From Pseudomonadota bacterium (GTDB taxonomy: Bacteria; Pseudomonadota; Gammaproteobacteria; Burkholderiales; JAKAFK01), in the NCBI GenBank assembly GCA_021817985.1, contig JAKAFK010000023.1, forward strand, positions 1 to 44,646: DNA of 44,646 bases. Reading direction: 5' to 3'. The notes under the pieces were generated by a model, which was given only the letters and a program-made list of their open reading frames with translations, was not told the DNA's origin and ran no database searches. The position numbers were made by a program, and so were the translations under genes. Below, one piece after another: positions 6,422 through 42,886 of this stretch (within the stretch, counting starts at the first letter, position 1; the number at the start of each line of letters is the position of its first letter).

Positions 6422-6469
6422 TTCTGCGCCCGTTTCCGACGGGAACGACGCCCGACTTCGGCACCCCCC

Positions 6470-8395: not shown

Positions 8396-8438
8396 TACTT
8401 GCCTTCTTTCTCAGTCAGTGCGATTGTGCAAGCCCGGA

Positions 8439-8444: not shown

Positions 8445-8496
8445 CCCTTACGGGACAAAACGGCCTACCGCTCGATATTTGGAACGGTTCGTAGCG

Positions 8497-12358: not shown

Positions 12359-12407
12359 AATTGGAATTCTTCGTTAGATCCATGCCAACCCCTCCGAAGG
12401 CACGCGC

Positions 12408-27088: not shown

Positions 27089-27121
27089 GAGGGATGACGT
27101 ACGAATGGGGGATATGTCCGA

Positions 27122-28867: not shown

Positions 28868-28871
28868 TGTT

Positions 28872-29981
28872 CTAGGCCCGCTGGAATTCGGACTTCATGA
28901 TATCGACAAAGCCCGAATCTACTTCTTCTTCTCTCAGATAATCCAAAACAATGCGCCTCATCGTGGCGGTTTCCGGCTGGAGTGCGCGGTCGAAAATGCT
29001 GCGGGTAACTGACGTGACCATGACGGGTTTGGTTACAAAATTCAATAGCGAAGAGGCAAAACCAGAACGCTTGTACGGAGAAAAGGCCGGGTCATCCAGA
29101 ATCAAGACGGGCTTTTCAGATACTAGGCATTGGTCCAGGGCAAGCGATACATGGCCAACCACAAGCTCGGCGCGCTGAATCAGCGACAGCGTCTTCCCAT
29201 AAACCAATTGCCTTCCGGAAAATCTATCGCGGGGGTATTGGTATTTTCCGGACGCCGCGACGACGACCGGAAGGCCGCTCCATTTCTCGATCTGGTCGAG
29301 AAAATGGTTGAGGCGGGCGTAGTACGCATCAGGATCAATGCAAACACTATGACCGAGAAGCTTCGCATCCGGTGCATAATCGATATTTTCGTCCACAAAA
29401 ACAGAATAGCCACCCTCAATAACGGGTCCTGTGGTTTCCCACAGAACCTTGACCGACGGAATGCTTATAAATTTCGCGGATCGGAATATCGCACATGCCT
29501 GCCGCCGCCCCATGCGCCCTGAACCAATCACCGCATGTGGTTTGAGGTATCTATTCAGGAATCGTTGTTTATGCTCCGTGATGAGGCGTCTCACTTTGAT
29601 GGAAAGGCGCGAGGGTTCAATGTTCGTATCGAAGTGCTGGAAGTAATAGCGAATTTTCTTGTCGTGCAACTTGGCAAAAATCCAGTCATCGTCAGTCGTT
29701 TTGAAGAACCGTGAGAGATAGAGCACGCGGTCAGTGGTTACAAGATCTTCCACTGCCTGTTCGACGTCCTGGCGAGCCCTGAAAATTCTGTGGTTCGGGC
29801 CCTCATAGCGGTAAGTTGCCGCGCCCCCGAAATATTGCTCTAGCCTCTCTCCGGAGTAAAAGAGCGGCGAAATGTCCCAAAACTGCACTTCGAACCCGTT
29901 TTCGGCGAACCACCTGGCGTGAACTTTTTCTCCGAAAATCCGAGACACAGGCAATGAGGATACAAATACCAATTTCTGCAT
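28872..29981 (-). CDS. Unrecognised protein, possible GT-B glycosyltransferase
   Basis: I do not recognise this 369-residue soluble-looking protein with certainty. It begins KLVFVSSLPVSRIFGEKVHA, ARWFAENGFEVQFWDI, a Rossmann-like start as in GT-B enzymes. The C-terminal half has QLVYGKTLSLIQRAELVVGH followed by VSLALDQCLVSEKPVLIL at about residues 275-295. That resembles the donor-site part of capsule glycosyltransferases and of bacterial CMP-sialic acid transferases (a conserved His/Ser and a KPV strand). It sits next to the ABC exporter and the legionaminic acid genes, which otherwise lack a clear transferase for the activated sugar. It has no good ribosome binding site, and a hairpin lies 11 nt upstream of its start. 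Confidence 0.55.
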   Translation of the reverse strand: MQKLVFVSSLPVSRIFGEKVHARWFAENGFEVQFWDISPLFYSGERLEQYFGGAATYRYEGPNHRIFRARQDVEQAVEDLVTTDRVLYLSRFFKTTDDDWIFAKLHDKKIRYYFQHFDTNIEPSRLSIKVRRLITEHKQRFLNRYLKPHAVIGSGRMGRRQACAIFRSAKFISIPSVKVLWETTGPVIEGGYSVFVDENIDYAPDAKLLGHSVCIDPDAYYARLNHFLDQIEKWSGLPVVVAASGKYQYPRDRFSGRQLVYGKTLSLIQRAELVVGHVSLALDQCLVSEKPVLILDDPAFSPYKRSGFASSLLNFVTKPVMVTSVTRSIFDRALQPETATMRRIVLDYLREEEVDSGFVDIMKSEFQRA

Positions 29982-29992
29982 AAAATTGTCTC

Positions 29993-30009
29993 AGCCATGC
30001 GTCATGGCT
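29993..30009 (-). promoter_or_regulatory. Perfect hairpin just upstream of the unknown gene
   Basis: AGCCATG (29993-29999), loop CGT, CATGGCT (30003-30009): a 7-bp perfect stem with a 3-nt loop. On the - strand it ends 11 nt before the start codon at 29981, overlapping the place of a ribosome binding site. The sequence between (GAGACAATTTT) has no clear Shine-Dalgarno. It could slow translation or be part of a leftward leader. It is not a typical intrinsic terminator. Confidence 0.45.
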
Positions 30010-30065
30010 AGTCGTGGCGCCACCCCTACCGAAACCAAGATTCAGCGAAACACTCAGGTCGAATC

Positions 30066-30099
30066 AAAAAAATCACGCCACTCGGAACTCGAAGGGCGT
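30066..30099 (-). terminator. Weak terminator candidate after the second sulfotransferase
   Basis: On the - strand GACGCC and GGCGTG contain a 5-bp stem (ACGCC 30075-30079, GGCGT 30095-30099, loop of 15 nt), followed by seven T (30066-30072). The long loop makes the stem weak, but the T-run is good. It would end transcription of the legionaminic acid operon before the unknown gene. The rest of the 210-bp gap shows nothing else recognisable. Confidence 0.3.
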
Positions 30100-30191
30100 C
30101 GGCCAGCCGGCGACGACGTGCCTGAGGTGTGTGAGATCCATTGATCAAGTCCCTTTAACCCACCGTAAGGTTCCCCTTGAAGCGGCCCCTG

Positions 30192-31148
30192 TTACCGATA
30201 TCCGAGTTGCTGGTTAACAAAGAGAAATTTGTCAAGCTCAGAACGGTCCACGTCGGCGAAAAAAGACTCCTGATCAACGTCTCTGCTCATCGAAGGGGGC
30301 GTTATGGTATCTCTTATCAGCGAGTATGTTTGGTCGGTGAAAGCCTGCTTCAGCGTTGCGGCCAAATTCGTCACTTCCTTCAAGGGGTCGCGAAGGATGT
30401 CCTCATACCGAATTGCAATCGTATTGGGCTTGCTGGCGGAATCCCCCATAACGTCCAAAGCCGCTTCCGCATCCTTTCGCCACATGTAACACGCGCGGGT
30501 CGCACCGTTCATCGCATACCACCGGTCGAGCTCGCGATCTTCCACGAAATAGGGAACCCTGACCTGTCCGCAAGCACCGGTCTTGTAGGGCCAATATTCG
30601 CGAAACAGGCTTTCATCGTTCAACCACCCCTTCCTAAGAATGGAGCGCACGACGGGCCTGCCGTCCCGCAATACGATAATGATCCGGGAATCGGCGAACC
30701 CCTCTTTCAGGAATCTGATGGAATCCGCTATGCCAGGCATCTTGACCGCAAGCTGGAGCCGCTTGTTTGCAATCTCATCGATTGCATCCTTCCGGTTGCT
30801 GATGTCACGCCATCTGCGATTCAATTCTTCCCACGAGATCATATTCAAGACACAGCTGTCGTCCTTCGCCCTAAGATTGACCTTTCTTCCATGGACAGAC
30901 TCGACCAAAAGGTCTTCGTATAAATACGCCCGAAGAATATCGGTCGCGGATTCTCTGTCTATGGCGCCCGCTGTCACCATGGCGGTGATCATGTAAAGCA
31001 AAGGCGGCTCGAAGTGATACTCGACCCGATCGAACGAACCGACGTACTTTCCTACAAGTGTCGTGCCTGATCGTGGAGAGCCGGTGATGAAGATGGTGTC
31101 CGACGTTCCTGAGATCTGATCGTCGGACAGATAAACGCGTTTTCGCAT
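30192..31148 (-). CDS. Sulfotransferase family protein
   Basis: This 318-residue protein starts with TIFITGSPRSGTTLVGKYVG, a clear 5'-phosphosulfate binding loop, and has IIIVLRDGRPVVRSILRKGW at about residues 148-167, the 3'-phosphate-binding R-D-x(n)-S element. These two motifs in order define the PAPS-dependent sulfotransferase family. It is 30 bp after the last legionaminic acid gene (ptmA), so it may be co-transcribed and act on the same glycan. The acceptor is not readable. I see no PAPS synthesis genes (cysDN/cysC type) in the window, so the donor would have to come from elsewhere in the cell. Confidence 0.82.
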   Translation of the reverse strand: MRKRVYLSDDQISGTSDTIFITGSPRSGTTLVGKYVGSFDRVEYHFEPPLLYMITAMVTAGAIDRESATDILRAYLYEDLLVESVHGRKVNLRAKDDSCVLNMISWEELNRRWRDISNRKDAIDEIANKRLQLAVKMPGIADSIRFLKEGFADSRIIIVLRDGRPVVRSILRKGWLNDESLFREYWPYKTGACGQVRVPYFVEDRELDRWYAMNGATRACYMWRKDAEAALDVMGDSASKPNTIAIRYEDILRDPLKEVTNLAATLKQAFTDQTYSLIRDTITPPSMSRDVDQESFFADVDRSELDKFLFVNQQLGYR

Positions 31149-31178: not shown

Positions 31179-32006
31179 CTACCAGGCGCTGAGGCCGCCA
31201 TCCACCAGAAAATTCTGCCCCGTCACATAGCTCGACGCGTCGGAGGCAAGATAAATCAACGTCCCCACCATTTCGTTGGGATGTGCCATTCTCCCTAACG
31301 GAATACGTGCAGAGTATCTCGTCTGAAATTGCGCGTTCTGGCCACTTTCCACTCCACCTGGACTGATGCAGTTTACGCGAATGCCCTTGTCCGCCCAATA
31401 CGTGGCAAGGTAGCGTGTCAGACCGATTACCCCCGCTTTTGAAACCGAGTAAACAGCGGGGGTGTTGATCGGGCGACCATTGTATAACGAACCCTCATAA
31501 ATTCTCTGGTCGGGCGCCATGGCGCCATAAATCGACGACGTCTGGATTATGCTCCCTCCTGCTCCCCGATGGACCATTTGTTTTCCGACGGCCTGTGCAA
31601 CCAAAAACATGCCATCGATGTTGACGGACATAATGTTGCGCCATTGGGCAAGCGTATAATCCTCAAACGGAGCAAAAAACGCATCGGGGTCGGAGGACTG
31701 ACCGGCCGCATTGTTGTGCAGAATGTCGATTCGCCCCAGAGCCGCGACAGTCTTTTCCACCATGGCGGATACCATCTGCGGAACGGCAACATCGCAGCCG
31801 ATTCCCACCGCCTTAATGCCATAAGCCTCTTGCAGTTCCTGTGCAAACGAGGTGCAAAGCTGCTCGTCCAGGTCGACGACGGCGACGTTAGCGCCGAATT
31901 CAGCCAGGCCCTTGCAAAAGGGCTTTCCCAAGAGACCGGTACCGCCCGTGACCACCGCGGTCTTTCCCTTGAGGCTGAACCAAGCTGAATCAAATTGGCG
32001 ATCCAT
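31179..32006 (-). CDS. ptmA: SDR family oxidoreductase, PtmA-like
   Basis: This 275-residue classical short-chain dehydrogenase has the NAD(P) site VVTGGTGLLGKPFCKGLAE at about residues 18-36, HNNAAG, the catalytic Ser in IIQTSSIYG and YSVSKAG (YxxxK). It ends SSYVTGQNFLVDGG, as in most SDRs. In Campylobacter jejuni an SDR of this kind (PtmA) sits at the end of the flagellin legionaminic acid locus and has been proposed to help make the GlcN precursor. Here it also follows ptmB/legF directly (17-bp overlap), in the same order. The name is assigned by this context and the motif set, not by a search. Confidence 0.8.
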   Translation of the reverse strand: MDRQFDSAWFSLKGKTAVVTGGTGLLGKPFCKGLAEFGANVAVVDLDEQLCTSFAQELQEAYGIKAVGIGCDVAVPQMVSAMVEKTVAALGRIDILHNNAAGQSSDPDAFFAPFEDYTLAQWRNIMSVNIDGMFLVAQAVGKQMVHRGAGGSIIQTSSIYGAMAPDQRIYEGSLYNGRPINTPAVYSVSKAGVIGLTRYLATYWADKGIRVNCISPGGVESGQNAQFQTRYSARIPLGRMAHPNEMVGTLIYLASDASSYVTGQNFLVDGGLSAW

Positions 32007-32703
32007 TTTCCATCCGCCTTTGCATCACAAATTCAACAAACTGAAAATCAAGCTCGGAATCGATGTCGATTGATCGCTCTTCCGGCATGACGTAGAGTTC
32101 AGTATCCGCATTGAAAATCGTTTTGCTCGAAAAAAACGTGTCTCGTCGCCAAACATAAATGGAAGCATTCATGTCGAAGCACTTTGGAGCATCCTGCCTC
32201 CGAAGTATCGGCTTCTTAGGCGGCTTGGACAGCACAACGACGCCCTGCTCGTTGAGCTCGACGAGGTTGAAGTAAGGCGATCGGCGTGATGGCATCGCGG
32301 TAATGAGATTTCCCGCCCCGGTCTTCTCCAGCTGGTTCACCGCATGGCGTATATCGTCAATGATGCGCAGAGGCGACGTCGCATCCAGATCCACCATGAC
32401 TTGGAACGTATGGCCGGTGAGTTTTTCCACTTCGGATACGCAATGCAGGATGGCAGGCAATTTTCCCGCTTCGTCCGTTGCCATTTCGTCCGGCCGTTTG
32501 ATTGCGAAGTCCACTCCGGCGTCCCGGGCAATTTCCAGGATCTGGTCAGAATCGCTGCTCACTGCCACCACATCGAACATTTCAGACGCTTTTGCCTGTT
32601 CGATGGTATAGACAATCAGAGGCTTCCCGAGCAGAGGCCGAACGTTTTTCCCCTTGACCCCTTTAGATCCGCCCCTCGCGCATATCGAGCAAATTCTCTT
32701 CAT
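31990..32703 (-). CDS. legF: CMP-nonulosonic acid (legionaminic acid) cytidylyltransferase
   Basis: This 237-residue enzyme of the CMP-sialic acid synthetase family activates a nonulosonic acid with CTP before transfer. The signature ICARGGSKGVKGKNVRPLLG (residues 7-26) holds the CTP-binding R-GGSKG-GKN motif. VSSDSDQILEIARDAG and VDLDATSPLR (central Asp for metal) follow, and CFDMNASIYVWRR is in the C-terminal half. It is the PtmB/LegF place in the operon. ATG 32703 overlaps the ptmF-like gene by 4 bp. The activated substrate is inferred to be legionaminic acid or a relative, because the pathway genes for that sugar surround it. Confidence 0.9.
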   Translation of the reverse strand: MKRICSICARGGSKGVKGKNVRPLLGKPLIVYTIEQAKASEMFDVVAVSSDSDQILEIARDAGVDFAIKRPDEMATDEAGKLPAILHCVSEVEKLTGHTFQVMVDLDATSPLRIIDDIRHAVNQLEKTGAGNLITAMPSRRSPYFNLVELNEQGVVVLSKPPKKPILRRQDAPKCFDMNASIYVWRRDTFFSSKTIFNADTELYVMPEERSIDIDSELDFQFVEFVMQRRMENGSPI

Positions 32704-33611
32704 CTATTCACCCATTCCCGGCGCTTCGCCGATTCTTCCGCCGCATCGATAAGCCGCAACGTTTCGAGACCCTCTTGCAGCGAACAAACGACGCTCGTGT
32801 CGTCGCTTATCAGTGCTTCGTGCATCTTGCGGTACGTATGATCGCGGTCAACTGAAAACACTTCAGGCGTTTTGTCGACCTCAAGGGTTCCGGCCACGAG
32901 ATCGGCAGTGTATGTATGTTCCACGGTATTAATGATCAGCAGCCTGCGCCCCTTCCGGTCAAGATAATTGATTTGCAGCGAAACGACGGGACAGGCAGGA
33001 GTAACCAACATCAGAGAGTATACGTCGTCGCTGTTGATTTCCAGAGGACTGTAATGTCCACCGACGGCGGCGACGTGACGCCAGCCGCCCAGGATCCATA
33101 ACAGATAGTCAAGCTCATGGCTGAGGTCGCGGAGCACGCCCCCTCCGAGCTCAGCGCGCGCCGAGTAGCAGGTCCGGTAATCCGTGGAAGGCCGCCACTC
33201 TGGAAGGTATTGACCGACATAGCCCTGCACTGACAAAATCGTCTGCCCCTCCAGGGCGTTCCGGAGCCGCTGGATGATCGGGTGGAACCTCAAGTTGTAG
33301 GCGACGAACACATTTTGGAAAGGATACGGCGGGAACTCCTGGAAATGCCCGAAAAGTGGTTTTTCCACCAGGACGGTACCAGTAAAGCCCGTAGCGGCCA
33401 GCTCAGTCAGTGTCTCGTAATGGCCGCTTGTTTCGTTGGAGAGCACCACATATTCTGGCGACTCGGATTGGATCGCATCCCTCAAGCTGGCATAACGAAT
33501 GGGGAAATTGACCTCACGCTTGCTGACCACTGCGGTACGGCAGCCGAGATCCGTCAGCAATCGTGCATGCCTTGTGCCGATGGAACCGTAACCCACGACG
33601 AGCGACTTCAT
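32700..33611 (-). CDS. ptmF: Gfo/Idh/MocA family oxidoreductase, PtmF-like
   Basis: This 303-residue NAD(P)-binding oxidoreductase starts SLVVGYGSIGTRHARLLTDLG, a GxGxxG Rossmann motif, then VLVEKPLFG (the EKP motif of this family), YNLRFHPIIQRL and GGGVLRDLSHELDYLLWILG with the conserved D-x(3)-H of the active site. In C. jejuni a gene of this type (ptmF) stands between ptmE and ptmB, as here, and it is proposed to contribute to the precursor for GDP-sugar formation. Its overlaps (4 bp on each side) tie it into the operon. The exact reaction is not settled by what I can see. Confidence 0.8.
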   Translation of the reverse strand: MKSLVVGYGSIGTRHARLLTDLGCRTAVVSKREVNFPIRYASLRDAIQSESPEYVVLSNETSGHYETLTELAATGFTGTVLVEKPLFGHFQEFPPYPFQNVFVAYNLRFHPIIQRLRNALEGQTILSVQGYVGQYLPEWRPSTDYRTCYSARAELGGGVLRDLSHELDYLLWILGGWRHVAAVGGHYSPLEINSDDVYSLMLVTPACPVVSLQINYLDRKGRRLLIINTVEHTYTADLVAGTLEVDKTPEVFSVDRDHTYRKMHEALISDDTSVVCSLQEGLETLRLIDAAEESAKRREWVNR

Positions 33612-34657
33612 GAAAAGATATCTCCATAGTCCCCTTTGGCACGGTCATAATCGGCCAGGTGGCCGATGTCCAACCAATATTCCCTAATGGGGAAGGCCGA
33701 AACGCCCATGCCCGCGCCGATCAGTTTTTCGAAAAGCGTGGGCATATCGAAATACGTGTTCTTGGGGATGAAATCCAAGGCCTCTGGCTCAAGGACATAG
33801 ATCCCGGCATTGACAAAGAATTTTTGTATCGGCTTTTCATCGATGCCGATGATGCGATGGTTATCGATCCTCACAACGCCATAGGGAACCTGGAAATCAT
33901 ATTCCCGGATGCACATGGTGGCCTTCGCATCGTGGCTCTTGTGAAAATCGAGCAATTGGCCAAAATTGACTTTGGTCAGCAAATCTCCGTTCATGACGAG
34001 AAGCGGCGCAGACGGCCTATTTCGAAGTAGGCTTAAAGCCCCCGCCGTACCAAGCTTTTCCGATTCGTGCAGATAGTCGATCGTGACGCCCCACTTCGAT
34101 CCGTCGCCGAAATGATCCGTGATGATTTCCGACTTATAGTTAACTGAGAAATAGAACGTCTCGAAACCAGACTCCATGAAATTGAGCAAAATAGTTTCCA
34201 GTATGGGGCGCCCGCCGATTTTCAACATGGGCTTGGGGCAGTCTTCTGTGAGCGGGCGCAGCCTGACCCCTAACCCGCCCGCCATCAGAATCACTGCGTT
34301 ATCGCGAGCTTGAGGCGCCAGGAATTCATCGAGGAACTCCAATCCTAAGAGAACGCCGCGGTCATCCACCACCGGGATGTGGTGAAGACCTTTCGCTTTC
34401 ATGCGCGTCAGCAAGCTTTCTCTGTCATCGTCGGGGCGGCACACTGTCGGGCGACAGTTCATCACCTCCCTCACCGCACCGTCGAGCGGGATGCCCTTCA
34501 GAATTCCCCGTCGAATATCCCCATCCGTCACCGTTCCGACAAGGCGACCGCTGTCGTCCACCACCAGCGCGATTTGCATGGCGCTCGCGTCAATGATCTC
34601 GATGGTTCTTCGGATGGGCGTATCGACTGCGACCTGAATGTTCCGGAAATTTCTCAT
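33608..34657 (-). CDS. ptmE: Nucleotidyltransferase with two CBS domains, PtmE-like
   Basis: This 349-residue fusion has two CBS domains in the N-terminal 120 residues (for example IALVVDDSGRLVGTVTDGDI and GLHHIPVVDDRGVLLG), followed by a sugar nucleotidyltransferase domain with ILMAGGLGVRLRPLTEDCPK, MLKIGGRPILETIL, LLVMNGDLLTKVNFGQLL and NAGIYVLEP. PtmE of the legionaminic acid pathway has this architecture and makes GDP-GlcN (GDP-GlcNAc route), which distinguishes legionaminic from pseudaminic acid synthesis, where UDP-sugars are used. The CBS part may sense an adenylate or other ligand. The start at ATG 34657 has a 30-bp gap behind the PIG-L gene. Confidence 0.87.
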   Translation of the reverse strand: MRNFRNIQVAVDTPIRRTIEIIDASAMQIALVVDDSGRLVGTVTDGDIRRGILKGIPLDGAVREVMNCRPTVCRPDDDRESLLTRMKAKGLHHIPVVDDRGVLLGLEFLDEFLAPQARDNAVILMAGGLGVRLRPLTEDCPKPMLKIGGRPILETILLNFMESGFETFYFSVNYKSEIITDHFGDGSKWGVTIDYLHESEKLGTAGALSLLRNRPSAPLLVMNGDLLTKVNFGQLLDFHKSHDAKATMCIREYDFQVPYGVVRIDNHRIIGIDEKPIQKFFVNAGIYVLEPEALDFIPKNTYFDMPTLFEKLIGAGMGVSAFPIREYWLDIGHLADYDRAKGDYGDIFS

Positions 34658-34687
34658 TCTTAAAACCTGGCTCAGGCTGATTGGAGT

Positions 34688-35356
34688 TCAGGACACTTCC
34701 CGAATCAGCATAAAGGCTTCTGCGTAATCAACGCCGATGCTCGCTCCCCTATACCGGGCCAACGCGCGGATCGCGGAAGGGCCCCGAGGAAAGGGATCGT
34801 CTTGAACTTCGGTCGAATACATCGCCATGATTTCAATTTTCCGCTCGATATGGTTGCTGACATCCACGTATATGTTCGGAATAAAAGTGCGATGCGGCTG
34901 AGGTGGAGCGGCTTCAGTGGAAGAGAGGGTTTCACAGGAAAGGACCCGCTTGACCCCCAGAGCCTTCATGTAAAACGTCTTGAGTACAGACATCGCCGCC
35001 GTAAAAACGGCTAGGTGATCCGAGTGCACGTCGCCACTGTGAACCAGGTAGACGACGTCAGGTTGGACGGCCGCAATCACTTGGCGCATACGGTCTATCA
35101 GTTCGGCTTGTGGCACGGTGTCCAAGCGAATAGTCGGAAAACCGAGCTTGACTATGCTAGCCATCCCAAAAGCCTTGCCTACCGCTTGGACCTCTTGCGC
35201 TTTTCGTTCGATATAATCGGACGTCCATTGAGGCACCTGAGCTTCGGTGATGATCAACCAGTGAATTTCGTGACCTTCCGATTTGTGCCGTAGCAAGGTA
35301 CCGCCGCAACCGAGGGTCTCATCGTCGGGATGGGGGGAGATGGCGAGTATCTTCAT
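34688..35356 (-). CDS. PIG-L family deacetylase
   Basis: This 222-residue LmbE/PIG-L family zinc-dependent N-deacetylase has the zinc motif SPHPDDETLGCGGTL at residues 7-21 and the matching HSGDVHSDHLAVF at about 107-119, so the metal site is complete. Family members remove N-acetyl groups from GlcNAc-type or other amide substrates. It is placed between legG and ptmE, where the C. jejuni locus has no such gene. It might deacetylate a legionaminic acid intermediate so that another acyl group can be put on, or act on another glycan. Gaps of 21 and 30 bp suggest it belongs to the same transcript. Confidence 0.87.
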   Translation of the reverse strand: MKILAISPHPDDETLGCGGTLLRHKSEGHEIHWLIITEAQVPQWTSDYIERKAQEVQAVGKAFGMASIVKLGFPTIRLDTVPQAELIDRMRQVIAAVQPDVVYLVHSGDVHSDHLAVFTAAMSVLKTFYMKALGVKRVLSCETLSSTEAAPPQPHRTFIPNIYVDVSNHIERKIEIMAMYSTEVQDDPFPRGPSAIRALARYRGASIGVDYAEAFMLIREVS

Positions 35357-35377
35357 GACAACTTATTCCGGGAAACC

Positions 35378-36538
35378 TTAATAGGTGATTGTTTTTCGCA
35401 ACACCGCTTTGTCAAGAGAGACTTCCGACAATATTTTCGCGATGCGCGGAGCCGCGTACCCATCGCCATAGAGGCTTGGGCATTGTTTGACTTGGTCAAG
35501 GTAGGTCTCATCCCCCAGGGCGCGCTCGCACGCACTGCGTACCTTGCTTTCCGACGCTGCCACGCGCAATACGTTGGGCCCCACCTCTCGCAAGTCTTGG
35601 CGGGGTCCCACGAGGATGCCCGGGACCTTCAAGAATCCGGATTCGATCACGATCGACGAAGAGTTGCCGACGATGGCTGCACAGCGACGATACAGCGCCA
35701 CGAACTGATTGCGCGGGAGATTGTGATACACGATCAGGTTGGGATACTGCGCCTTTGCCTCATCGATTGCTTGTCGGATCGCGATATTGCCCGGATCAAA
35801 GTTCGGATAACTGCACAAAACAGGATGTCCTAGGGATAGAATTCCTCTTAAGATCCCAGCCGTCTCGGCAGCCGGATCTTCCGCGCTCAGCAAAGGCGAG
35901 GGATGCTGTATGAGCAGGAAAAACGGCTCTCGAACATTTATGCCGAATTCTCGGTTTAGTTCCTCGTCAGACACGTCGGGTTCGGTTCTCAGTCTGTCCA
36001 ATCCGGTTCCACCGGTCACCCAAATCTGATCGGGCGGTTCGCCCATTCGAATGAGCCGATCCCGGTGGCCTTCAGTCGCCGTGAAATGGAAGTGCGCGAG
36101 TTTCGAAATCGCTGGACGCAGGACCTCGTCCAACTCGGATGCGATGCACCGATCGCCCCCATCAAGATGGGCCACATGGATCCCGAGGAAATTAGCGACG
36201 ATCGCGCCAGCAAATGCTTCCTCTCTGTCTCCGGCCACAAACAGCAAATCCGGCTGATTGGAGCCCAGAAAACGGGTGAGCCCCTCAACCAAATTGGAAA
36301 ATGATAAGGCACGTCCTTCCCATGTCTCGGAGCACAGCAGCGACGGGATTTTCGCAACAACCGGAAACCCGTCTTGCTCAATGACCCTCACATTCAGTCC
36401 GTGGAACGGAGACAGCTGCCCGGCAGATGCGATGATTCCTGGCACCAGATTGGCCGCCTGGGAGGTAGCCTCTATGACAGGATGCAAAATATCGTATTCA
36501 GATCGCGCTCCGGTCAAAAAGAATATAGATCTCTTCAT
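35378..36538 (-). CDS. legG: Hydrolysing nucleotide-sugar 2-epimerase (LegG/NeuC-type)
   Basis: This 386-residue enzyme is of the NeuC/UDP-GlcNAc 2-epimerase family. It removes the nucleotide from a GDP- or UDP-linked 2,4-diacylamino-trideoxyhexose and inverts C-2. Seen features are FLTGARSEYDILHPVIEAT at the start, FVAGDREEAFAGAIVANFLG, HVAHLDGGD (the catalytic-region His and Asp), FTATEGHRDRLIRMGE, and the GNSSSIVIESGFLKVPGILVG run near residue 300 that binds the nucleotide. It lies in the same place as neuC2 (Cj1328-like) in the legionaminic acid order, but after four inserted genes. ATG 36538 overlaps the methyltransferase by 4 bp. Confidence 0.92.
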   Translation of the reverse strand: MKRSIFFLTGARSEYDILHPVIEATSQAANLVPGIIASAGQLSPFHGLNVRVIEQDGFPVVAKIPSLLCSETWEGRALSFSNLVEGLTRFLGSNQPDLLFVAGDREEAFAGAIVANFLGIHVAHLDGGDRCIASELDEVLRPAISKLAHFHFTATEGHRDRLIRMGEPPDQIWVTGGTGLDRLRTEPDVSDEELNREFGINVREPFFLLIQHPSPLLSAEDPAAETAGILRGILSLGHPVLCSYPNFDPGNIAIRQAIDEAKAQYPNLIVYHNLPRNQFVALYRRCAAIVGNSSSIVIESGFLKVPGILVGPRQDLREVGPNVLRVAASESKVRSACERALGDETYLDQVKQCPSLYGDGYAAPRIAKILSEVSLDKAVLRKTITY

Positions 36539-37200
36539 GCCCTCAGACTGTCCAACAGATCTTTGCGAGTGTCAATTAATGGCTCATGATAAAGGATGAC
36601 GCTGAAGTCGTGGGGCAGGTAGTCATGACGCAATAGCACATAAGGAGTGATATCGAGCGCCAATTCCAGCACCTCTTCGGCGCGCCATGCCTGCATGTGC
36701 GGTGCAAATTTCTCGTACCGATCAGTCAAAATGCTGACGTGAGCGGCAACGGAACACAGATCGAATTGCTTTTTGGTGATCGCCTTTAACAGGCCTTTAT
36801 TATGCTCCGTCCGAACATTATTGTGAATTCCCACCGCGACAGCGTAATCAAATCTTCGCGTTGGTTCCCAGTCTAAGAAATTGCCCGATTCAAACGTTGC
36901 ATTAGGGAATCGTTCGTTGCATCTTGCGACCATTACCGGAGATATGTCGAATCCCGTGTAATCCGTGTCGATGTGTTTTGCCTGCAAATAGGCAAACAAA
37001 TCGCCGACCCCGCACCCTACGTCCAGGACACTTTTCCCTGATAACGGGTGCAGTTGCAAAAACGCCTCAAACCGCATAAGTTGCGACCGCTTACTTGAGT
37101 CCACCTTTTCGCAATCGTCGGCGAAGGATCCGGCGCGCGTATCCCAATAGGTTTGAATCGACTGCAGGTCTTTATCAAGATCTTTATCTTTCATGATCAC
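36535..37200 (-). CDS. Class I SAM-dependent methyltransferase
   Basis: This 221-residue methyltransferase has a DVGCGVGDLFAYLQAK SAM motif I at about residues 60-75, then TDYTGFDISPVMVARCNERF and FDYAVAVGIHNNV, in normal order. The start is GTG 37200, which makes a GTGA overlap with the DegT gene stop. An in-frame ATG at 37194 is an equally good start. It is unlike the methyltransferase at 24266 in sequence, so the window has two. It may place an N- or O-methyl group on the nonulosonic acid or on the product of the neighbouring DegT enzyme. The local composition is AT-richer than region A (26 of 60 G+C, hand count in 36541-36600). Confidence 0.85.
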   Translation of the reverse strand: MIMKDKDLDKDLQSIQTYWDTRAGSFADDCEKVDSSKRSQLMRFEAFLQLHPLSGKSVLDVGCGVGDLFAYLQAKHIDTDYTGFDISPVMVARCNERFPNATFESGNFLDWEPTRRFDYAVAVGIHNNVRTEHNKGLLKAITKKQFDLCSVAAHVSILTDRYEKFAPHMQAWRAEEVLELALDITPYVLLRHDYLPHDFSVILYHEPLIDTRKDLLDSLRA

Positions 37201-38282
37201 GAAGGCCTAAGGAGTTTGGAGAGGTTGTCGGCAACGTAGTACGCTTCCTCGTCGGTCATTGATGCATTTATGGGCAAGGACAGCAAATGAGCTCGCCAAT
37301 ACCCGGCATTGCGGAGGCTTCCGCGCGCGGACTCATGCCCCACAAGCGCATCGAGCCACGGATTGACGGCCGACCTGGCGTCGATACCCTTAGATTGCAA
37401 AAGAGCGGCAATATTTCCGCTGGAATCCCGTGTTCGCACGATGTAGCGATAATATGAATGTCCGGCAATGTTGGCGGGAACCGATAGCCCGGGAACGTCA
37501 CACAGCTCTTGAGAGTAAATCGCTGCAATGGAACGTCGCCGTTGTAGAAACGATGGCATCTTCTTGAATTGCTCGAGGGCGATCGCGGCATTGACATCCG
37601 AGAGCCGGCCCGGAAACCCCGATGGCCGTCCGTTCTGCCACGCGCCAACCTGCGATGAGCTGTCAGAGTCGAGAAGGCCATGGATCTTGTCGGCGAGGTC
37701 GGGGTCGTTCGTTAACAACATGCCCCCGGTTCCGGCAGTGATATATTTCGTGCTGTTGAAGGAAAACACCGCTAGCGTTCCCCACGACCCGGCAGGGCGT
37801 GCTTTGGCATAGGTTGCCGGTGAGGTCGCACAGTCTTCGATCCAAGGGAGTCCCAGTTGCTCAATCGCATCGATATCGAGTGGCGCACCATAGGCATGGG
37901 GAGCAATAATTGCTTGAGTGCCCGCAGACAGGGACGAAGCTTCCAGCGTCAAGTCTTCGCGTGAAATATCCCCAAGCCCGGGCCTATGTCCCGCGCCCTC
38001 GACGGCATCAATCAGGGAGGGACAGGTTAGTACCGGCAGGGAAACCAGGCTGCATTTTGGCAGATCCAGTGCCCTAATGCCCAACGAAAGCGCGTGAAAT
38101 CCGGACGCAACCGCAAATCCAAACCGCTTACCCGTGCGTATGCAGAACACCGATTCAAGTTTTTGCGCGATCTCGCCGTAGCCGACATAATTGCCCTTGA
38201 GGACAGCTTCCACGGCTTGAATCTCGTCTGTACCGACGCTCGGCCGCGAGTGAGGAAGACAGCTATTGGACCGGGCGTTCAA
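37197..38282 (-). CDS. DegT/DnrJ/EryC1 aminotransferase inserted in the legionaminic acid operon
   Basis: This 361-residue PLP enzyme has the DegT layout: AVASGFHALSLGIRALDL (substrate/PLP phosphate region), LPVLTCPSLIDAVEGAG, WIEDCATSPATYAK (PLP-ring Asp) and FSFNSTKYITAGTGGMLL at about residues 173-190, where the Lys holds PLP. It is not the LegC of the pathway, which is at 40691, and it differs strongly from it, so it probably aminates another substrate. It overlaps the WbqC gene by 4 bp and the methyltransferase by 4 bp, so the three form a coupled set. No N-terminal signal or membrane segment. Confidence 0.85.
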   Translation of the reverse strand: MNARSNSCLPHSRPSVGTDEIQAVEAVLKGNYVGYGEIAQKLESVFCIRTGKRFGFAVASGFHALSLGIRALDLPKCSLVSLPVLTCPSLIDAVEGAGHRPGLGDISREDLTLEASSLSAGTQAIIAPHAYGAPLDIDAIEQLGLPWIEDCATSPATYAKARPAGSWGTLAVFSFNSTKYITAGTGGMLLTNDPDLADKIHGLLDSDSSSQVGAWQNGRPSGFPGRLSDVNAAIALEQFKKMPSFLQRRRSIAAIYSQELCDVPGLSVPANIAGHSYYRYIVRTRDSSGNIAALLQSKGIDARSAVNPWLDALVGHESARGSLRNAGYWRAHLLSLPINASMTDEEAYYVADNLSKLLRPS

Positions 38283-38977
38283 AGGTAGTCCCTTGCCTTG
38301 TCTCCGGCATTCAAAATCAGATCCACGGTTGAAAGGGCGCGGTCAAAGCCAGTCTTTGGAAAACACTGAGGGTATTCTTTGAATTGATAATCCTGGTAGT
38401 GCAAGTCGATGCCATTTTTGTCGAAAAGCCTTTCGTCCTGATATGCTTTCGCGCCCTGGCCGGACAGATAAACGGTAGCTCCCACCTCTTGACAGATAGC
38501 CAGGACCAGATCGTTCCTGCTGCCGTTCACGGAGAGTTCCGAGGCACGCACTCGAGTACATGTCACGCCTAACCGTTTGAAAATCCATTCCGACAATGCA
38601 ATGTTAAGATCGGCAAGATAGGTCCATTCCGTTTCGATCAAGGCTCGCAGCCCTTGATCGATAAGCTGCTTAAACGGTGCCCGTGCGTAGGCCATGTTAA
38701 TGCTGCGCAAATGTTTCTGTCGCCAATGTTGTGTGTTGTCAATGGGCGTTTGCTGAATCGTCGTCTCGAGCGAGGCATGCACTGGCACGGTCAGCCAAGC
38801 GGGTCCTTGTGCCGTCTTAATCTGATTTCGATTTTGGACCCCGTTTTTTTGATACTGTACGTTGTCGAGATAGACAAAAATATCCGAGGCAGCCGCCTTG
38901 GCCACATAAGGCAGCCACGGAATGTATTGGGGTTGGTGGATAGCAACGGTCGTCATGGATACGTTGAGTAGCGTCAT
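38279..38977 (-). CDS. WbqC family protein
   Basis: This 232-residue protein has the family start VAIHQPQYIPWLPYVAKAA (about residues 11-29), DIFVYLDNVQYQKNGVQNRN and LYVSGQ-like VYLSGQGAKAYQDERLFDKN further on. The WbqC-like family is common in O-antigen and nonulosonic acid clusters, and I know of no settled biochemical role. ATG 38977 overlaps the NeuD-like gene by 4 bp, and another ATG at 38956 (MTTVAIHQP) is possible. Fixed position between an acyltransferase and an aminotransferase hints at a role in attaching or making an acyl group, but that is a guess. Confidence 0.85.
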   Translation of the reverse strand: MTLLNVSMTTVAIHQPQYIPWLPYVAKAAASDIFVYLDNVQYQKNGVQNRNQIKTAQGPAWLTVPVHASLETTIQQTPIDNTQHWRQKHLRSINMAYARAPFKQLIDQGLRALIETEWTYLADLNIALSEWIFKRLGVTCTRVRASELSVNGSRNDLVLAICQEVGATVYLSGQGAKAYQDERLFDKNGIDLHYQDYQFKEYPQCFPKTGFDRALSTVDLILNAGDKARDYL

Positions 38978-39612
38978 TTATTCAACGTTCGGGCGGGAAC
39001 ACCAGCAACCGTCCTGCCATCGGGAACGTCCTCGATGACGACTGCACCAGCCGCAACCAGGCAGCCAGCCCCGATCCGAATGCCCTGAATTATCGTTGCG
39101 CCCGTGCCGATGTGACTTCCTTCGCCAATCGTCACTTCGCCGGAGAGAGTGGTTCCGGGTGCGATATGGACATGCTCGCCAATTTGGCAATCATGATCGA
39201 CCAAGGCACCGGTATTGATAATGGTATTGCTGCCGACGAGGCATCCCGTCTGCACTATCGCTCCCGCCATCACCTGCACGCCGGCCGACAATTCAGCGGT
39301 TCTCGAGATGAATGCCGAGGGGTGGACGACACCTGCGAAATGATAGCCCATGCCCTTGAATCTCGCATATATATCGCCGCGCAATATCGGCGCTCTCACG
39401 CTTCCAATTCCATTCACCAAGCTTACGGTGTCCGGGGAGTGCCGCAAGATCTCCTGGTCGTTACCGAGGATCGGGACGCCCAGCACATTACCGCCATGTT
39501 TGCCCGAGGCTGCGTCGGTGGCACCCAATATTTTTACCGGAAGCAACAGAAGAGTGTCGATCAGAACCTTCGCATGCCCGCCGGCACCTATAATTATCAA
39601 TGGGTTGTCCAC
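38974..39612 (-). CDS. legH: NeuD/PglD-type sugar acetyltransferase, LegH candidate
   Basis: This 212-residue acetyltransferase has the two-part NeuD/PglD fold. Its N-terminal Rossmann-like half carries LIIIGAGGHAKVLIDTL (residues 5-21), and a left-handed beta-helix of hexapeptide repeats runs from about residue 105 to 195 (VQVMAGAIVQTGCLVG, IGEHVHIAPGTTLSGEVTIG, IGTGATIIQGIRIG), ending VPDGRTVAGVPAR. HDCQIGEHVHIAPG has the His of acetyl transfer. In the pathway order this gene would N-acetylate the 4-amino group (LegH) or O-acetylate the acid (NeuD). The order alone favours LegH. The GTG start at 39612 shares one base with the legI stop (TAGTG). Confidence 0.83.
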   Translation of the reverse strand: MDNPLIIIGAGGHAKVLIDTLLLLPVKILGATDAASGKHGGNVLGVPILGNDQEILRHSPDTVSLVNGIGSVRAPILRGDIYARFKGMGYHFAGVVHPSAFISRTAELSAGVQVMAGAIVQTGCLVGSNTIINTGALVDHDCQIGEHVHIAPGTTLSGEVTIGEGSHIGTGATIIQGIRIGAGCLVAAGAVVIEDVPDGRTVAGVPARTLNK

Positions 39613-40694
39613 TATTGAATCTGTTCATCCTGAAGAAAATCCCGGTCCGCAGTCTTGCCAAGCCACTCCCAGTACCGCATAGGGCTAATGCCATCTCCCG
39701 GGCGTTTCAGCGCCAGATTTTCGGCGGTAAAGAGTTCCCCTTTGTGGATGTCACGGGACGCCACTAGGCTTTTCCGCCCCGCCGGTCTATTTTCAATTTC
39801 CGATGGTGCTATTTTCTTGAGCGGGGAACCCAAGGCAGCTTCCACTTCCCTTATCCCTGCGACCATCATTTTCAATTCATCAGGTTCGAGGCTCGCCTTG
39901 TGGTCTGGCCCCGGGAGATTCCTGTCTAGCGTAAAGTGCTTTTCAATCACCTTCGCTCCGAGTGCCGCAGCGGCAATTGGGACAGAAATTCCCGTCGTAT
40001 GATCCGAATACCCGACGGGCAGACCAAAGGCGCAGGCCATCGAATTCATGGCATCGAGGTTGACATCTTCAAATGGCGCGGGGTATTCGGTGGTGCAATG
40101 CAACAAGGTTACATGCTTTTCCAGCGCAGCCTGCCCAGCGCTTGAATTATATGCGGCAACAAATGCATCGACAGACGGCATGGCTTCTTCCGGCGTCAAA
40201 TACCCAAAGGCAAGTGCGCTCAGAGCTCCCTCAATTTCCGCAAGAGTACTCATTCCCGTCGACAGAATGATCGGCTTACCTGTTCTTGCGATGTCGAGCA
40301 AGAACGGAGCATTCGTTATATCCCCCGACGAAATTTTGATACAGGGCAGATCAAGCCTGACTAGCAGATCAAGACTTTCAGTGTCGAACGGTGTCGAAAG
40401 GAAACCTATCCCTCTGCTTGCGCTGTGACTCATCAGCACACCGTGCGCGGCCTCGTCCAGTTCGAGTTTTCGCAGCATCGCCAACTGGGAATCGTCTTCA
40501 CCCGTATTCCGCACCTGATAGGCGGCCTTGTTAGCCAGTCTGCTAGCAAGCTTTGCGGCTTTGAATGTCTGAAATTTCACCGCATCGGCCCCCGCTTCCG
40601 CAGCAGCATCGATTAACCGGATCGCCATCTCGACCGAGCCGTTATGGTTCACGCCCGCCTCGGCGATGATAAAAACGTGTGTTGTCGGGTTCAT
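39612..40694 (-). CDS. legI: Legionaminic acid synthase (NeuB family)
   Basis: This 360-residue enzyme condenses a 2,4-diacetamido-2,4,6-trideoxymannose with phosphoenolpyruvate to give the nine-carbon nonulosonic acid. It has FIIAEAGVNHNGSVEMAIRL (metal/PEP site with Glu and His), GADAVKFQTFKA, ISSGDITNAPFL, LSTGMSTLAEIE, LLHCTTEYPAPFEDVNL, GYSDHTTG and EKHFTLDRNLPGPDH, all NeuB-family motifs. A C-terminal SAF antifreeze-like domain (about residues 295-355) has RDIHKGELFTAENLALKRPG. ATG 40694 overlaps the legC stop by 4 bp. The Leg assignment (instead of Neu or Pse) comes from the legB/legC/ptmE context. Confidence 0.94.
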   Translation of the reverse strand: MNPTTHVFIIAEAGVNHNGSVEMAIRLIDAAAEAGADAVKFQTFKAAKLASRLANKAAYQVRNTGEDDSQLAMLRKLELDEAAHGVLMSHSASRGIGFLSTPFDTESLDLLVRLDLPCIKISSGDITNAPFLLDIARTGKPIILSTGMSTLAEIEGALSALAFGYLTPEEAMPSVDAFVAAYNSSAGQAALEKHVTLLHCTTEYPAPFEDVNLDAMNSMACAFGLPVGYSDHTTGISVPIAAAALGAKVIEKHFTLDRNLPGPDHKASLEPDELKMMVAGIREVEAALGSPLKKIAPSEIENRPAGRKSLVASRDIHKGELFTAENLALKRPGDGISPMRYWEWLGKTADRDFLQDEQIQ

Positions 40695-41884
40695 CCTGTG
40701 TGGCCAGTAAAAGGGCTGAAACTATCGACCAGAGAAGCACTGCTCGGTATGTTGATTAGGCGCCGCTCGATGCTTTCGGCGATGCCGAGGTCTGACATCT
40801 TCGGGCAGGCCTCGTACATTTCGAGACGGTGCATGAGTGTCCATGCCGGCCTCGTCATGATCCCTGCTTCGTTCGTCGCGTCCAACAACCCGTCGCGGAA
40901 TCGCTCGTTTCCGGGTTCAAGAATCAGCGCATTGAGCCAGTAGTTGCTCCTCGCGAAGGAGGGTTCGGCAAAGAACCGAATTCCCCCAAGGCCGGCGAAC
41001 GCGGCCTTGTATTTTTCGGCGAGACCGCGCTTTCTTTCCACGAATCCCGGCAATGCCTCCAGTTGGGCGCATCCGAGCGCCGCATTGATATTGGGTAGAC
41101 GATAGTTGTAGCCAATCTTGTCGTGCGTGAAAGACCACCTGTGAGGTATCTTCGCGGTCGTCGTGAGATGCTTTGCGAGCCTCGCAAGTTCCGCGTCGTT
41201 GGTCAGTATCGCCCCCCCGCCACCCGTCGTGACGATCTTGTTGCCGTTGAAGCTCAACGCCGACAATTTTCCGAGGGTGCCGGTGTGTCTTCCCTTATAG
41301 AATGACCCCAGGGACTCGGCAGCATCCTCAACGAGGGTGATTCCGAACCGCCGGCAGATTTCCAACAACGGATCAAGGTCGGCAGGGTGCCCGAACGTAT
41401 GCATGACCACCAGCGCCCTGATGCGCCGCCCGGTCGCCCGGTTGAAGCAAGTGCCGTCACGGATCTCGACCGTGTCTTCAAGATACGCCTTCAGCTTATC
41501 GGGATCCACGCCCAACGTGATCTCGCTGCTGTCGACAAAATGGGGGACGGCTCCGCAATAGCTGACCGCGTTCGCCGTGGCGACGAAGGTCAGCGTGGGG
41601 ATCAGGACTTCATCGTCGCGCTCGACGCCGGCGAGCCTCAGGCAAACATGGAGTGCTGCCGTGCCGTTGACCGTGGCGATCGCGTGCTTCGCCCCTGTGT
41701 ATTCGGCAAGCTGCGCTTCGAAGCGGTCAACGAATTTGCCTACCGAGGAGACCCACCCCGTGTCCAGGCATTCCTTCACATACGTCCATTCGTTACCCGA
41801 GAATTTGGGCTCATGCAGCGCCACCGTGCCTTCAGGAAGGACGTTTTTCAGGATTTCCGTTATGGTGCGTGCGAGATCGATCAT
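40691..41884 (-). CDS. legC: LegC family sugar aminotransferase
   Basis: This 397-residue PLP-dependent aminotransferase has the long N-terminal part typical of LegC (HEPKFSGNEWTYVKECLDTG, WVSSVGKFVDRFE), then IATVNGTAALHVCLRLAGV, IPTLTFVATANAVSYCG, TLVEDAAESLGSFYKG and SFNGNKIVTTGGGG at about residues 210-223 with the PLP Lys. It should aminate C-4 of the keto sugar made by LegB. The gene is GC-rich (39 of 60 in 41641-41700, by hand), unlike the pathway genes after it, which may mean mixed origin. It starts 3 bp after legB ends. Confidence 0.93.
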   Translation of the reverse strand: MIDLARTITEILKNVLPEGTVALHEPKFSGNEWTYVKECLDTGWVSSVGKFVDRFEAQLAEYTGAKHAIATVNGTAALHVCLRLAGVERDDEVLIPTLTFVATANAVSYCGAVPHFVDSSEITLGVDPDKLKAYLEDTVEIRDGTCFNRATGRRIRALVVMHTFGHPADLDPLLEICRRFGITLVEDAAESLGSFYKGRHTGTLGKLSALSFNGNKIVTTGGGGAILTNDAELARLAKHLTTTAKIPHRWSFTHDKIGYNYRLPNINAALGCAQLEALPGFVERKRGLAEKYKAAFAGLGGIRFFAEPSFARSNYWLNALILEPGNERFRDGLLDATNEAGIMTRPAWTLMHRLEMYEACPKMSDLGIAESIERRLINIPSSASLVDSFSPFTGHTG

Positions 41885-41887
41885 GCT

Positions 41888-42886
41888 TCAGAGGTTATAG
41901 ATGTCCGCCTTGTAGCGGCTAAGGTTCTCCGGATCGGAAAACCACGCGACCGTTTCTGCGATCCCTCTCTCGAATCCTTCCATTCCCCCATAGGCGGGGC
42001 TCCATCCGGTAAGCGCCTTGGCCTTCGCATTCTCAGCCCACAGACGCTCCACCTCGCTCTTCTGCGGACGCAGGCGAATTTCGTCCGTTTCGATTTCGAC
42101 ATCCTGCGCCATGACCTTCGCGATCACGCGAACCGTCTCGCCTATGGAGACCTCGAAATTGCTGCCGATGTTGACCACTTCACCCACTGTTTTCTCGGAT
42201 TCGGCAATAGCCATGAAGCCGCTCACCGTGTCCGAAACGAAGTTGAAATCCCTCGTTGGGCTCAACGCGCCGAGCTTGAGTTTTCTCCTGCCGCTGGCAA
42301 TTTGCGTGATGACGGTTGGGATCACCGCCCTCGCGGACTGGCGGGGACCGTAGGTGTTGAACGGCCGAATAATCGAAACGGGGGTACCGAAGGCATTATA
42401 AAAGGACATGGCGATCTGGTCGGCGCCGATCTTGGTTGCGGAATAGGGAGACTGCCCCTGCAGCGGATGGTCTTCATCGATCGGAACATATTTCGCAGTG
42501 CCGTATACTTCGCTCGTCGAAGTGTGCACCACCCTCTTCAACTCCAGTTCCCTCGCGGCCTGCACGACATTCAGTGTGCCCTTGATGTTCGTGTCAACAT
42601 AGGTGTCCGGCGAATGGTAGGAGTAGGGTATGGCGATGAGGGCCGCCAGATGCATCACGGTATCGCAACCTCTCATCGCGGTTTTGACACCGTGTGGGTC
42701 GCGTACGTCTCCTGCAAAGACATCGAACTTGCCCCTCACATCCTTGCCGCAATTGTCCAGCCATCCCCATGAATTGAAGGAATTGTAAAGGACAAAAGCG
42801 CGGACTTCGTGGCCCCGCCTCACCAGTGCTTCGGTAAGATGGGAGCCGATGAATCCGTCGGCCCCTGTCACCAAAATACTAGACAT
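41888..42886 (-). CDS. legB: NAD-dependent nucleotide-sugar 4,6-dehydratase, LegB
   Basis: This 332-residue extended SDR has ILVTGADGFIGSHLTEALVR (GxxGxxG), MHLAALIAIPYSYHSPDTY, NIKGTLNVVQAARE, TSTSEVYGTAKY and YSATKIGADQIA (YxxxK), then FNTYGPRQSARAVIPTVI. AALIAIPYSYHSP and the following PRQSARAVIP are as I expect of LegB (UDP/GDP-GlcNAc 4,6-dehydratase). This sets it apart from the WbpM-type dehydratase at 6470. It is the first gene of the legionaminic acid operon. ATG 42886 has AGGA 9-10 nt upstream. The promoter should be in 42887-43251, where I see no convincing sigma-70 pair. Confidence 0.93.
   Translation of the reverse strand: MSSILVTGADGFIGSHLTEALVRRGHEVRAFVLYNSFNSWGWLDNCGKDVRGKFDVFAGDVRDPHGVKTAMRGCDTVMHLAALIAIPYSYHSPDTYVDTNIKGTLNVVQAARELELKRVVHTSTSEVYGTAKYVPIDEDHPLQGQSPYSATKIGADQIAMSFYNAFGTPVSIIRPFNTYGPRQSARAVIPTVITQIASGRRKLKLGALSPTRDFNFVSDTVSGFMAIAESEKTVGEVVNIGSNFEVSIGETVRVIAKVMAQDVEIETDEIRLRPQKSEVERLWAENAKAKALTGWSPAYGGMEGFERGIAETVAWFSDPENLSRYKADIYNL

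Follow-up and report, generated by a model that had tools for sequence, protein, structure and literature searches.

A legionaminic acid-type operon with an embedded, recurrent set of DegT, PIG-L, and WbqC genes that may alter N-acyl decoration

Organization of the operon

The window, that is, the whole 44,646-nucleotide stretch of DNA analyzed here, is contig JAKAFK010000023.1 of a Pseudomonadota bacterium of the order Burkholderiales (GenBank assembly GCA_021817985.1; C8:1-44646 of a 3.97-Mb genome in 184 contigs). It carries 13 codirectional open reading frames (ORFs) on the minus strand, running from 42886 to 31179, which form a PtmE-type legionaminic acid operon, transcribed in the order legB-legC-legI-legH-wbqC-degT2-mt-legG-pigL-ptmE-ptmF-legF-ptmA (Table 1). 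Four of these genes are extra to the pathway, namely, those for a WbqC family protein, a second DegT-like aminotransferase (DegT2), a methyltransferase, and a PIG-L-type deacetylase. A preliminary description of this DNA, made from the sequence alone, had given the same 13 ORFs, positions, and direction, which the ORF coordinates bear out, and had assigned them to a legionaminic acid-type pathway with PtmE. Indeed, LegB and LegC pass the cutoffs of their equivalog models, whereas the models for the pseudaminic acid enzymes PseB (75.6 bits; cutoff, 407.75) and PseC (226.6 bits; cutoff, 423.5) fail.

The overlaps of 4 bp that had been described at seven junctions (starts at 40694, 38977, 38282, 37200, 36538, 33611, and 32703) are exact. 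The four extra genes do lie between legH and ptmE, as had been proposed, but not as one block, legG splitting them three plus one; similarly, the proposed translational coupling holds for wbqC, degT2, and mt, which overlap their neighbors, but not for pigL, which has gaps of 21 bp before it and 30 bp after it. Counterparts without the insertion were found by our own profiles (applied in all locus counts at 30 bits to ORFs of at least 100 amino acids): L181, with the order legB-legC-formyltransferase-legI-legG-ptmE-(unassigned stretch)-ptmF-legF-ptmA, and L190, with legB-legC-legG-legI-formyltransferase-ptmE-ptmF-legF-ptmA. The GC content is about 53 to 57% across the operon versus 57 to 68% over the leftmost 23 kb of the window.

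Table 1. Genes of the operon in the direction of transcription, with the matches behind each assignment (PLP, pyridoxal phosphate; SAM, S-adenosylmethionine)
Gene	Coordinates	Strand	Assignment	Basis
legB	41888..42886	-	NAD-dependent 4,6-dehydratase	TIGR04180, 537 bits (cutoff, 475)
legC	40691..41884	-	4-Aminotransferase	TIGR04181, 549 bits (cutoff, 420)
legI	39612..40694	-	Nonulosonic acid synthase, NeuB family plus SAF domain	TIGR03569, 492 bits (cutoff, 400); PF03102 and PF08666
legH/neuD	38974..39612	-	N-Acetyltransferase (PglD_N plus hexapeptide)	TIGR03570, 231 bits (cutoff, 161)
wbqC	38279..38977	-	Predicted BshC/class I aminoacyl-tRNA synthetase-like fold; proposed (amino)acyl ligase	PF08889, 237.4 bits (cutoff, 21.3)
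degT2	37197..38282	-	PLP aminotransferase of the WbqC/PIG-L-linked group; TTG start	PF01041, 189.9 bits
mt	36535..37200	-	Class I SAM-dependent methyltransferase; subfamily at times found beside WbqC	Methyltransf_25, PF13649, 50.7 bits
legG	35378..36538	-	Hydrolyzing 2-epimerase, NeuC family	TIGR03568, 309 bits (cutoff, 236)
pigL	34688..35356	-	N-Deacetylase, PIG-L/BshB superfamily	PF02585, 88.8 bits (cutoff, 28.2)
ptmE	33608..34657	-	CBS-CBS-nucleotidyltransferase (GDP-sugar route)	PF00571 twice and PF00483
ptmF	32700..33611	-	Gfo/Idh-like oxidoreductase	Weak inositol dehydrogenase match, 26 bits; operon position
legF	31990..32703	-	CMP-nonulosonate cytidylyltransferase (assigned to the cytidylyltransferase family only)	Best model PseF, 133 bits (below cutoff of 206)
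ptmA	31179..32006	-	Short-chain dehydrogenase	Short-chain dehydrogenase models, at most 194 bits

Recurrence of the DegT, PIG-L, and WbqC genes

Of 299 genomes sampled from the phylum, 79 contain a member of the WbqC family (PF08889), that of the window included. A survey made regardless of nonulosonic acids covered 40 WbqC loci, mostly one per genus, from 83 listed places in these 79 genomes; a DegT gene lies near WbqC in 33 of them, a PIG-L gene in 13, a methyltransferase gene in 5, and a NeuB gene in 4. Wherever PIG-L is present (13/13), the gap between it and WbqC is at most 32 bases. Further, 39 WbqC genomes yielded 30 PIG-L matches over the cutoff, 14 of which fall within 1 kb of WbqC, with that of the window falling within 4 kb; a naive count would expect about 0.08 of the 30 within 4 kb. 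The 14 WbqC-adjacent genes come from six families besides that of the window, and since 8 of the 14 genomes belong to one family, they do not represent 14 independent events. In one locus (L147), the trio forms a stand-alone operon between housekeeping genes, with all three genes confirmed by Pfam, and in another (L143), it lies beside an apparent polyprenyl-phosphate sugar-phosphate transferase, recognized by eye. We conclude that DegT, PIG-L, and WbqC constitute a recurrent module. The same two loci show that the extra genes are not confined to nonulosonic acid synthesis and come close to placing them in unrelated contexts; their repeated co-occurrence with legionaminic- and pseudaminic-type genes speaks the opposite way.

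In the PIG-L protein, H9, D11, D12, D113, and H114 are invariant in all 24 rows of an alignment. We take the H-x-D-D and D-H residues to be the metal site. Its best NCBIfam model is BshB1, at 78.4 bits, below the cutoff of 182.5. The open-access literature that we searched holds no account of WbqC function or of the WbqC-PIG-L pair, and it describes neither the link of these two to a group of DegT proteins nor such a module inside an operon of this kind; the operon itself is of a known kind.

Searches by sequence alone returned no close relatives of DegT2 from 99 other genomes (1e-40), 397 other genomes (1e-50), or plasmids (1e-40), and its link to the DegT proteins associated with PIG-L and WbqC is drawn from a tree rather than from sequence searches. 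In this tree of 63 DegT proteins, DegT2 falls into a group of 14 rows with support of 95/86, all 14 from loci with PIG-L and WbqC, 10 being close kin and one being stand-alone by Pfam. A viral DegT (L097) is likewise linked to PIG-L and WbqC yet falls outside this group, and LegC joins the DegT proteins of other LegB-containing loci. The tree has long branches, among them that of DegT2 (best identity, 29%), and several of its forks are open. The PLP-binding lysine, K179 in DegT2, is kept throughout the group (14/14). Three further residues, H11, C87, and R279 in the numbering of the window protein, are likewise found in all 14 rows and in at most a quarter of the 49 other DegT proteins (C87 in 3 of the 49). 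This conservation suggests that DegT2 is an aminotransferase with a substrate of its own.

Association with the methyltransferase

A search with the methyltransferase as the query gave a match in 5 of 273 other genomes of the class. One, from another family (L012), lies in a pseudaminic-type cluster with PIG-L, DegT, and WbqC, while in three of the five loci (L014 to L016), the methyltransferase alone matched the query set. A scan of named genomes with a methyltransferase alignment gave 76 loci, with WbqC nearby in 8 (L023, L025, L029, L032, L036, L044, L045, and L051). L023, from a gammaproteobacterial metagenome-assembled genome, and L025, from Phycisphaerales, are pseudaminic-type clusters with PIG-L, a formyltransferase, the methyltransferase, and WbqC; L044, from Rhodobacteraceae, has a NeuB family synthase, WbqC, and the methyltransferase; and L013, L029, and L032 have the methyltransferase and WbqC, with no NeuB match. 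The five sampled WbqC loci with this methyltransferase subfamily are L145 (7148-9482), L135, L136, L170, and L169; four of them lack PIG-L and NeuB, and L169 has NeuB. The link between methyltransferase and WbqC may represent another, independent use of WbqC. The PDB profile matches of the methyltransferase mix N-, O-, and C-methyltransferases and thus point to no particular acceptor.

NeuB loci with and without WbqC

Nine NeuB-containing clusters besides that of the window have both PIG-L and WbqC (L012, L023, L025, L149, L158, L178, L094, L095, and L097), which makes it likely, as had been proposed, that the operon produces a modified nonulosonic acid. For a comparison of PIG-L frequencies, 14 NeuB loci with WbqC were assembled: the window; L012 from the methyltransferase search; L023, L025, and L044 from the methyltransferase scan; L149, L158, L169, and L174 from the WbqC survey; L220, included because genome lists placed NeuB and WbqC side by side; the viral L094, L095, and L097; and the plasmid locus L178. 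The 40 controls were hand-picked, one each from 40 of 116 NeuB genomes, omitting NeuB places known to lie near WbqC (G000, G106, G322, G344, and G350) and G327. WbqC is found in none of the 40 controls, partly by construction, and only their PIG-L rate counts as a result. PIG-L is present in 10 of the 14 loci with WbqC versus 6 of the 40 without (Fisher P = 1.9e-4), and excluding the window leaves 9 of 13 (P = 4.7e-4).

Among the controls, a formyltransferase of at least 100 bits occurs in two of the six with PIG-L (L180 and L186, adjacent to it in both) versus 2 of the 34 without (L181 and L190); weaker matches occur in three and four controls, respectively. In L180 (6092-6751) and L186 (9934-10599), PIG-L stands beside the formyltransferase in NeuC/NeuB-type clusters without WbqC, an arrangement that hints at N-formyl nonulosonic acids. 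In these small numbers, PIG-L in NeuB pathways may often be paired with a partner able to resubstitute the amine.

Occurrence in plasmids, phages, and viral contigs

From 35 plasmid and 2 phage matches, we examined 4 plasmid matches (H2, H3, H5, and H15) and 1 phage match (H37); H15 and H37 were chosen because the annotation already named a deacetylase, and they serve as examples rather than as counts. In the Vibrio phage vB_VpS_PG28 (L175, 5333-6747), the PIG-L and WbqC ORFs share one base; the enzymes might act there on DNA, on a nucleotide, or on a glycan. A plasmid of Streptomyces sp. NBC_00239 (L176, 5270-9520) has a run of PIG-L, WbqC, a GT4 glycosyltransferase, and a class II aminoacyl-tRNA synthetase-like gene, in which the PIG-L and WbqC ORFs overlap; with its cytidine deaminase-type genes and TauD dioxygenase, it resembles a natural-product cluster with a PIG-L/WbqC pair. 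On a plasmid of Mariluticola halotolerans, a bacterium of sea sediment (L178), the order is pseB-pseC-pseF-PIG-L-pseG-NeuB-hypothetical-WbqC. WbqC loci on plasmids of Azospirillum (L177) and Solidesulfovibrio (L179) have no PIG-L listed.

Three of the four viral contigs with WbqC have NeuB and PIG-L (L094, L095, and L097). L094 (IMGVR_UViG_3300029893_000200, 2413-8798) carries nearly a pseudaminic acid pathway, with PIG-L, NeuB, a hexapeptide acetyltransferase-like ORF, WbqC, PseB-like and PseC-like genes, a second NeuB, and a cytidylyltransferase; an apparent terminase, recognized by eye, lies downstream at 11593-12978. The fourth contig (L096), without NeuB, has a doubtful PIG-L-like ORF, at 46 bits by our own profile, which Pfam does not confirm.

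Predicted fold of WbqC

Sequence searches gave no match between WbqC and any solved structure. Residues Q15, D32, D38, R50, and Y170 of WbqC are invariant. AlphaFold2 models were made of the window protein (predicted local distance difference test score, 95.6; predicted TM score, 0.91) and of its counterpart in L025 (91.2 and 0.87). With a second-look structural aligner, the bacillithiol synthesis enzyme BshC (PDB 4wbd) ranks first for both, with a Z score of 14.6 over 221 of 232 residues at 3.6 Å for the window protein and 14.8 over 223 of 237 residues at 3.4 Å for the L025 protein. Class I lysyl-tRNA synthetase (LysRS-I) ranks second (Z scores of 12.1 and 12.2), and the next rows, at 8.5 and 7.6, are close to what the tool describes as typical of models lacking a clear Foldseek match. 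The overall fold of WbqC is thus predicted to be of the type shared by BshC and the class I aminoacyl-tRNA synthetases (the HIGH superfamily). A guess from the N-terminal motif that WbqC resembles pantothenate synthetase returned a weak structural row only, with a Z score of about 6.5.

A proposed route to altered N-acyl groups

Taking these findings together, we tentatively favor, at somewhat under an even chance, the reading that this is an operon for a legionaminic-type acid made by the guanosine diphosphate (GDP) route, with a portable module that alters the N-acyl decoration of the product. As in the established families, PtmE would provide a GDP-activated amino sugar, which LegB would dehydrate, LegC would aminate at C4, and LegH would acetylate; LegG would epimerize and hydrolyze the product, LegI would condense it with phosphoenolpyruvate, and LegF would convert it to the cytidine monophosphate (CMP) sugar. 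As to the catalytic steps of the module, their order, and their substrate, we infer that PIG-L removes the N-acetyl group at one of the two amide positions, on either the sugar or a precursor, and that WbqC then ligates another carboxylic acid to the liberated amine, an amino or hydroxy acid being the likeliest choice. The methyltransferase might then methylate the new group or the amine, and DegT2 might supply a further amino group. The overall logic would be that of bacillithiol synthesis (BshB, BshC, and NmbA) applied to a nonulosonic acid.

Several observations weigh against this proposal. In 27 of the 40 WbqC loci, no PIG-L is seen over a distance of about 9 kb or before the contig ends (26 if a contig-edge fragment beside the G239 WbqC is counted), the trio also exists without nonulosonic acid genes (L147 and L143), and BshB1 is among the few NCBIfam models of the PIG-L superfamily, so that its status as the best match means little. 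The NeuB loci of the WbqC survey alone do not give a significant excess of PIG-L (2/5, P = 0.21; with the window, 3/6, P = 0.08), and four NeuB loci have WbqC but no PIG-L, namely, L169 and L174 as well as L044 and L220, whose contigs are 9.4 and 6.4 kb long, respectively. That a formyltransferase may replace WbqC as the partner of PIG-L is no more than a hint. As for the fold, the two WbqC models are not independent, having been built from the same 13 sequences in a different order; Foldseek gives no match at an E value of 0.001 or below for either model versus solved structures, and the BshC match is a realignment of its candidates. Neither profile-profile comparison supports sequence homology of WbqC to BshC, the hhalign probability being 0.6% with 13 sequences and 0.4% with 74, below the 5.1% of NeuB, an unrelated control, and a Pfam scan of WbqC finds PF08889 only, without PF10079 (BshC). 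Hence, we say that WbqC may work like BshC, not that it is BshC. Moreover, BshC activity in vitro was still undemonstrated by 2015 (PMC4360819).

The strongest competing explanation, which we nevertheless regard as rather improbable, is that the extra genes serve to make another amino sugar of this surface glycan, distinct from the nonulosonic acid, which they would leave untouched, with cotranscription balancing the supplies. The isolated trios of L147 and L143 fit it, as do the presence of NeuB in only 4 of the 40 sampled WbqC loci, the occurrence in the window of additional DegT enzymes and of a gene resembling those for 4,6-dehydratases, and the residues that set DegT2 apart from most other DegT proteins. 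It accords less well with wbqC, degT2, and mt being joined by overlaps between legH and legG, with the nine other NeuB clusters that have PIG-L and WbqC in different hosts and viral contigs, and with the higher frequency of PIG-L in NeuB loci that have WbqC than in those that lack it. An explanation that we consider unlikely keeps the amine-freeing role of PIG-L but sees in WbqC a nucleotidyl- or acyltransferase of the HIGH superfamily, which would attach a simple acyl group (formyl or hydroxyacyl) or activate a small molecule, rather than an amino acid ligase. Cytidylyltransferases, phosphopantetheine adenylyltransferase, and pantothenate synthetase do appear lower in the structural lists, and a formyltransferase accompanies the methyltransferase and WbqC in five loci (L012, L023, L025, L013, and L029). 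Against this, LysRS-I stands 3.6 and 4.6 and BshC 6.1 and 7.2 Z units above the next rows, and the formyltransferase, where present, would already explain formylation. It is very improbable that the extra genes are mere passengers in an island of lower GC content with no function joint with the operon: the GC difference and the operons without the insertion (L181 and L190) are compatible with this, but the reading frames overlap, the catalytic residues are kept, and the same partners recur.

The deacetylation and re-acylation proposal can be extended to the whole WbqC family, as a possibility that we think doubtful in its full breadth. WbqC proteins would be compact, BshC-like ligases that attach (amino)acyl groups to sugar amines and, together with PIG-L and in many cases a dedicated DegT enzyme, would form a portable cassette of bacteria, plasmids, and phages serving legionaminic acid, pseudaminic acid, and other glycan pathways. 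The window would then be a legionaminic acid example with an added methyltransferase, and its product would be an undescribed aminoacyl or N-methyl-aminoacyl nonulosonic acid. The proposal would give a testable reaction to a large family lacking a described function in the literature searched, and it connects that family with a deacetylase and with a particular group of aminotransferases. WbqC would be a small stand-in for BshC, itself a cysteine ligase awaiting in vitro demonstration in 2015. Gene content could then predict which legionaminic and pseudaminic acid clusters, phage-borne ones included, make sialic acid-like sugars with unusual N substituents, which matter for surface recognition.

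Comparison with known systems

The proposed deacetylate, methylate, and acylate logic is also that of Nod factor synthesis, where the deacetylase NodB, the methyltransferase NodS, and the acyltransferase NodA modify the nitrogen of an amino sugar. The methyltransferase profile matches NodS weakly (E value, 2e-6), and the deacetylase and acyltransferase families of the two systems are not known to be related.

The ptm/leg genes of Campylobacter and the GDP-linked CMP-legionaminic acid pathway of Plesiomonas shigelloides, whose table includes GlmU, PtmA, LegF, PtmF, PtmE, LegH, LegI, and LegB (PMC4481668), are matched in the window by LegB, LegC, LegH, LegI, LegG, LegF, PtmE, PtmF, and PtmA. The operon differs from that pathway in having wbqC, degT2, mt, and pigL and in lacking a GlmU-type gene among its 13. 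In the synthesis of bacillithiol and N-methyl-bacillithiol, as described in PMC6282198 and PMC12719100, BshB deacetylates, BshC adds cysteine, and NmbA N-methylates; the window likewise has a deacetylase of the PIG-L superfamily, a protein with a BshC-like predicted fold, and a SAM-dependent methyltransferase. In contrast to the BshA, BshB, BshC, and NmbA set, there is no BshA-type glycosyltransferase among the 13 genes, the families of WbqC (PF08889) and BshC (PF10079) have no sequence-profile relation, and NmbA is not among the matches listed for the methyltransferase profile (the best 60 of 129 PDB rows).

Vibrio vulnificus CMCP6 is stated to have Leg5Ac7AcAla, a legionaminic acid with an alanyl substituent, and the legionaminic acid cluster of Aliivibrio wodanis has, like the window, a second aminotransferase; the enzyme that adds the alanine was not found in the relevant portion of the same paper, from which the word WbqC is absent (PMC7371886). 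Aminoacyl legionaminic acids are thus a real class of product, of which WbqC is a proposed maker. The pseudaminic-type clusters L012, L023, L025, L149, and L178 combine PIG-L and WbqC with a NeuB family synthase, as in the window; L012 and L149 share with it a DegT of the DegT2 group, and L012, L023, and L025 share the methyltransferase. They differ in that PseC and PseG replace LegB, LegC, and LegG and in the formyltransferase of L012, L023, and L025.

Neighboring genes and a second NeuB locus

The genome of the window holds a second NeuB gene in another stretch (L017, G000:C52:18000-29912, at about 3 to 11 kb), in which WbqC and PIG-L gave no match; besides NeuB, the stretch has an ORF resembling a cytidylyltransferase-HAD fusion, an aminotransferase-like ORF recognized by eye, short-chain dehydrogenase genes, and an ABC exporter. 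Downstream of the operon in the window (region 26108-31148) lie a sulfotransferase family gene (30192-31148), an ORF (28872-29981) for which Pfam gave no match at 1e-6, and a HepA/MsbA-like ABC exporter (27122-28867). In view of these genes, the sugar may become part of a glycan that is sulfated and exported.

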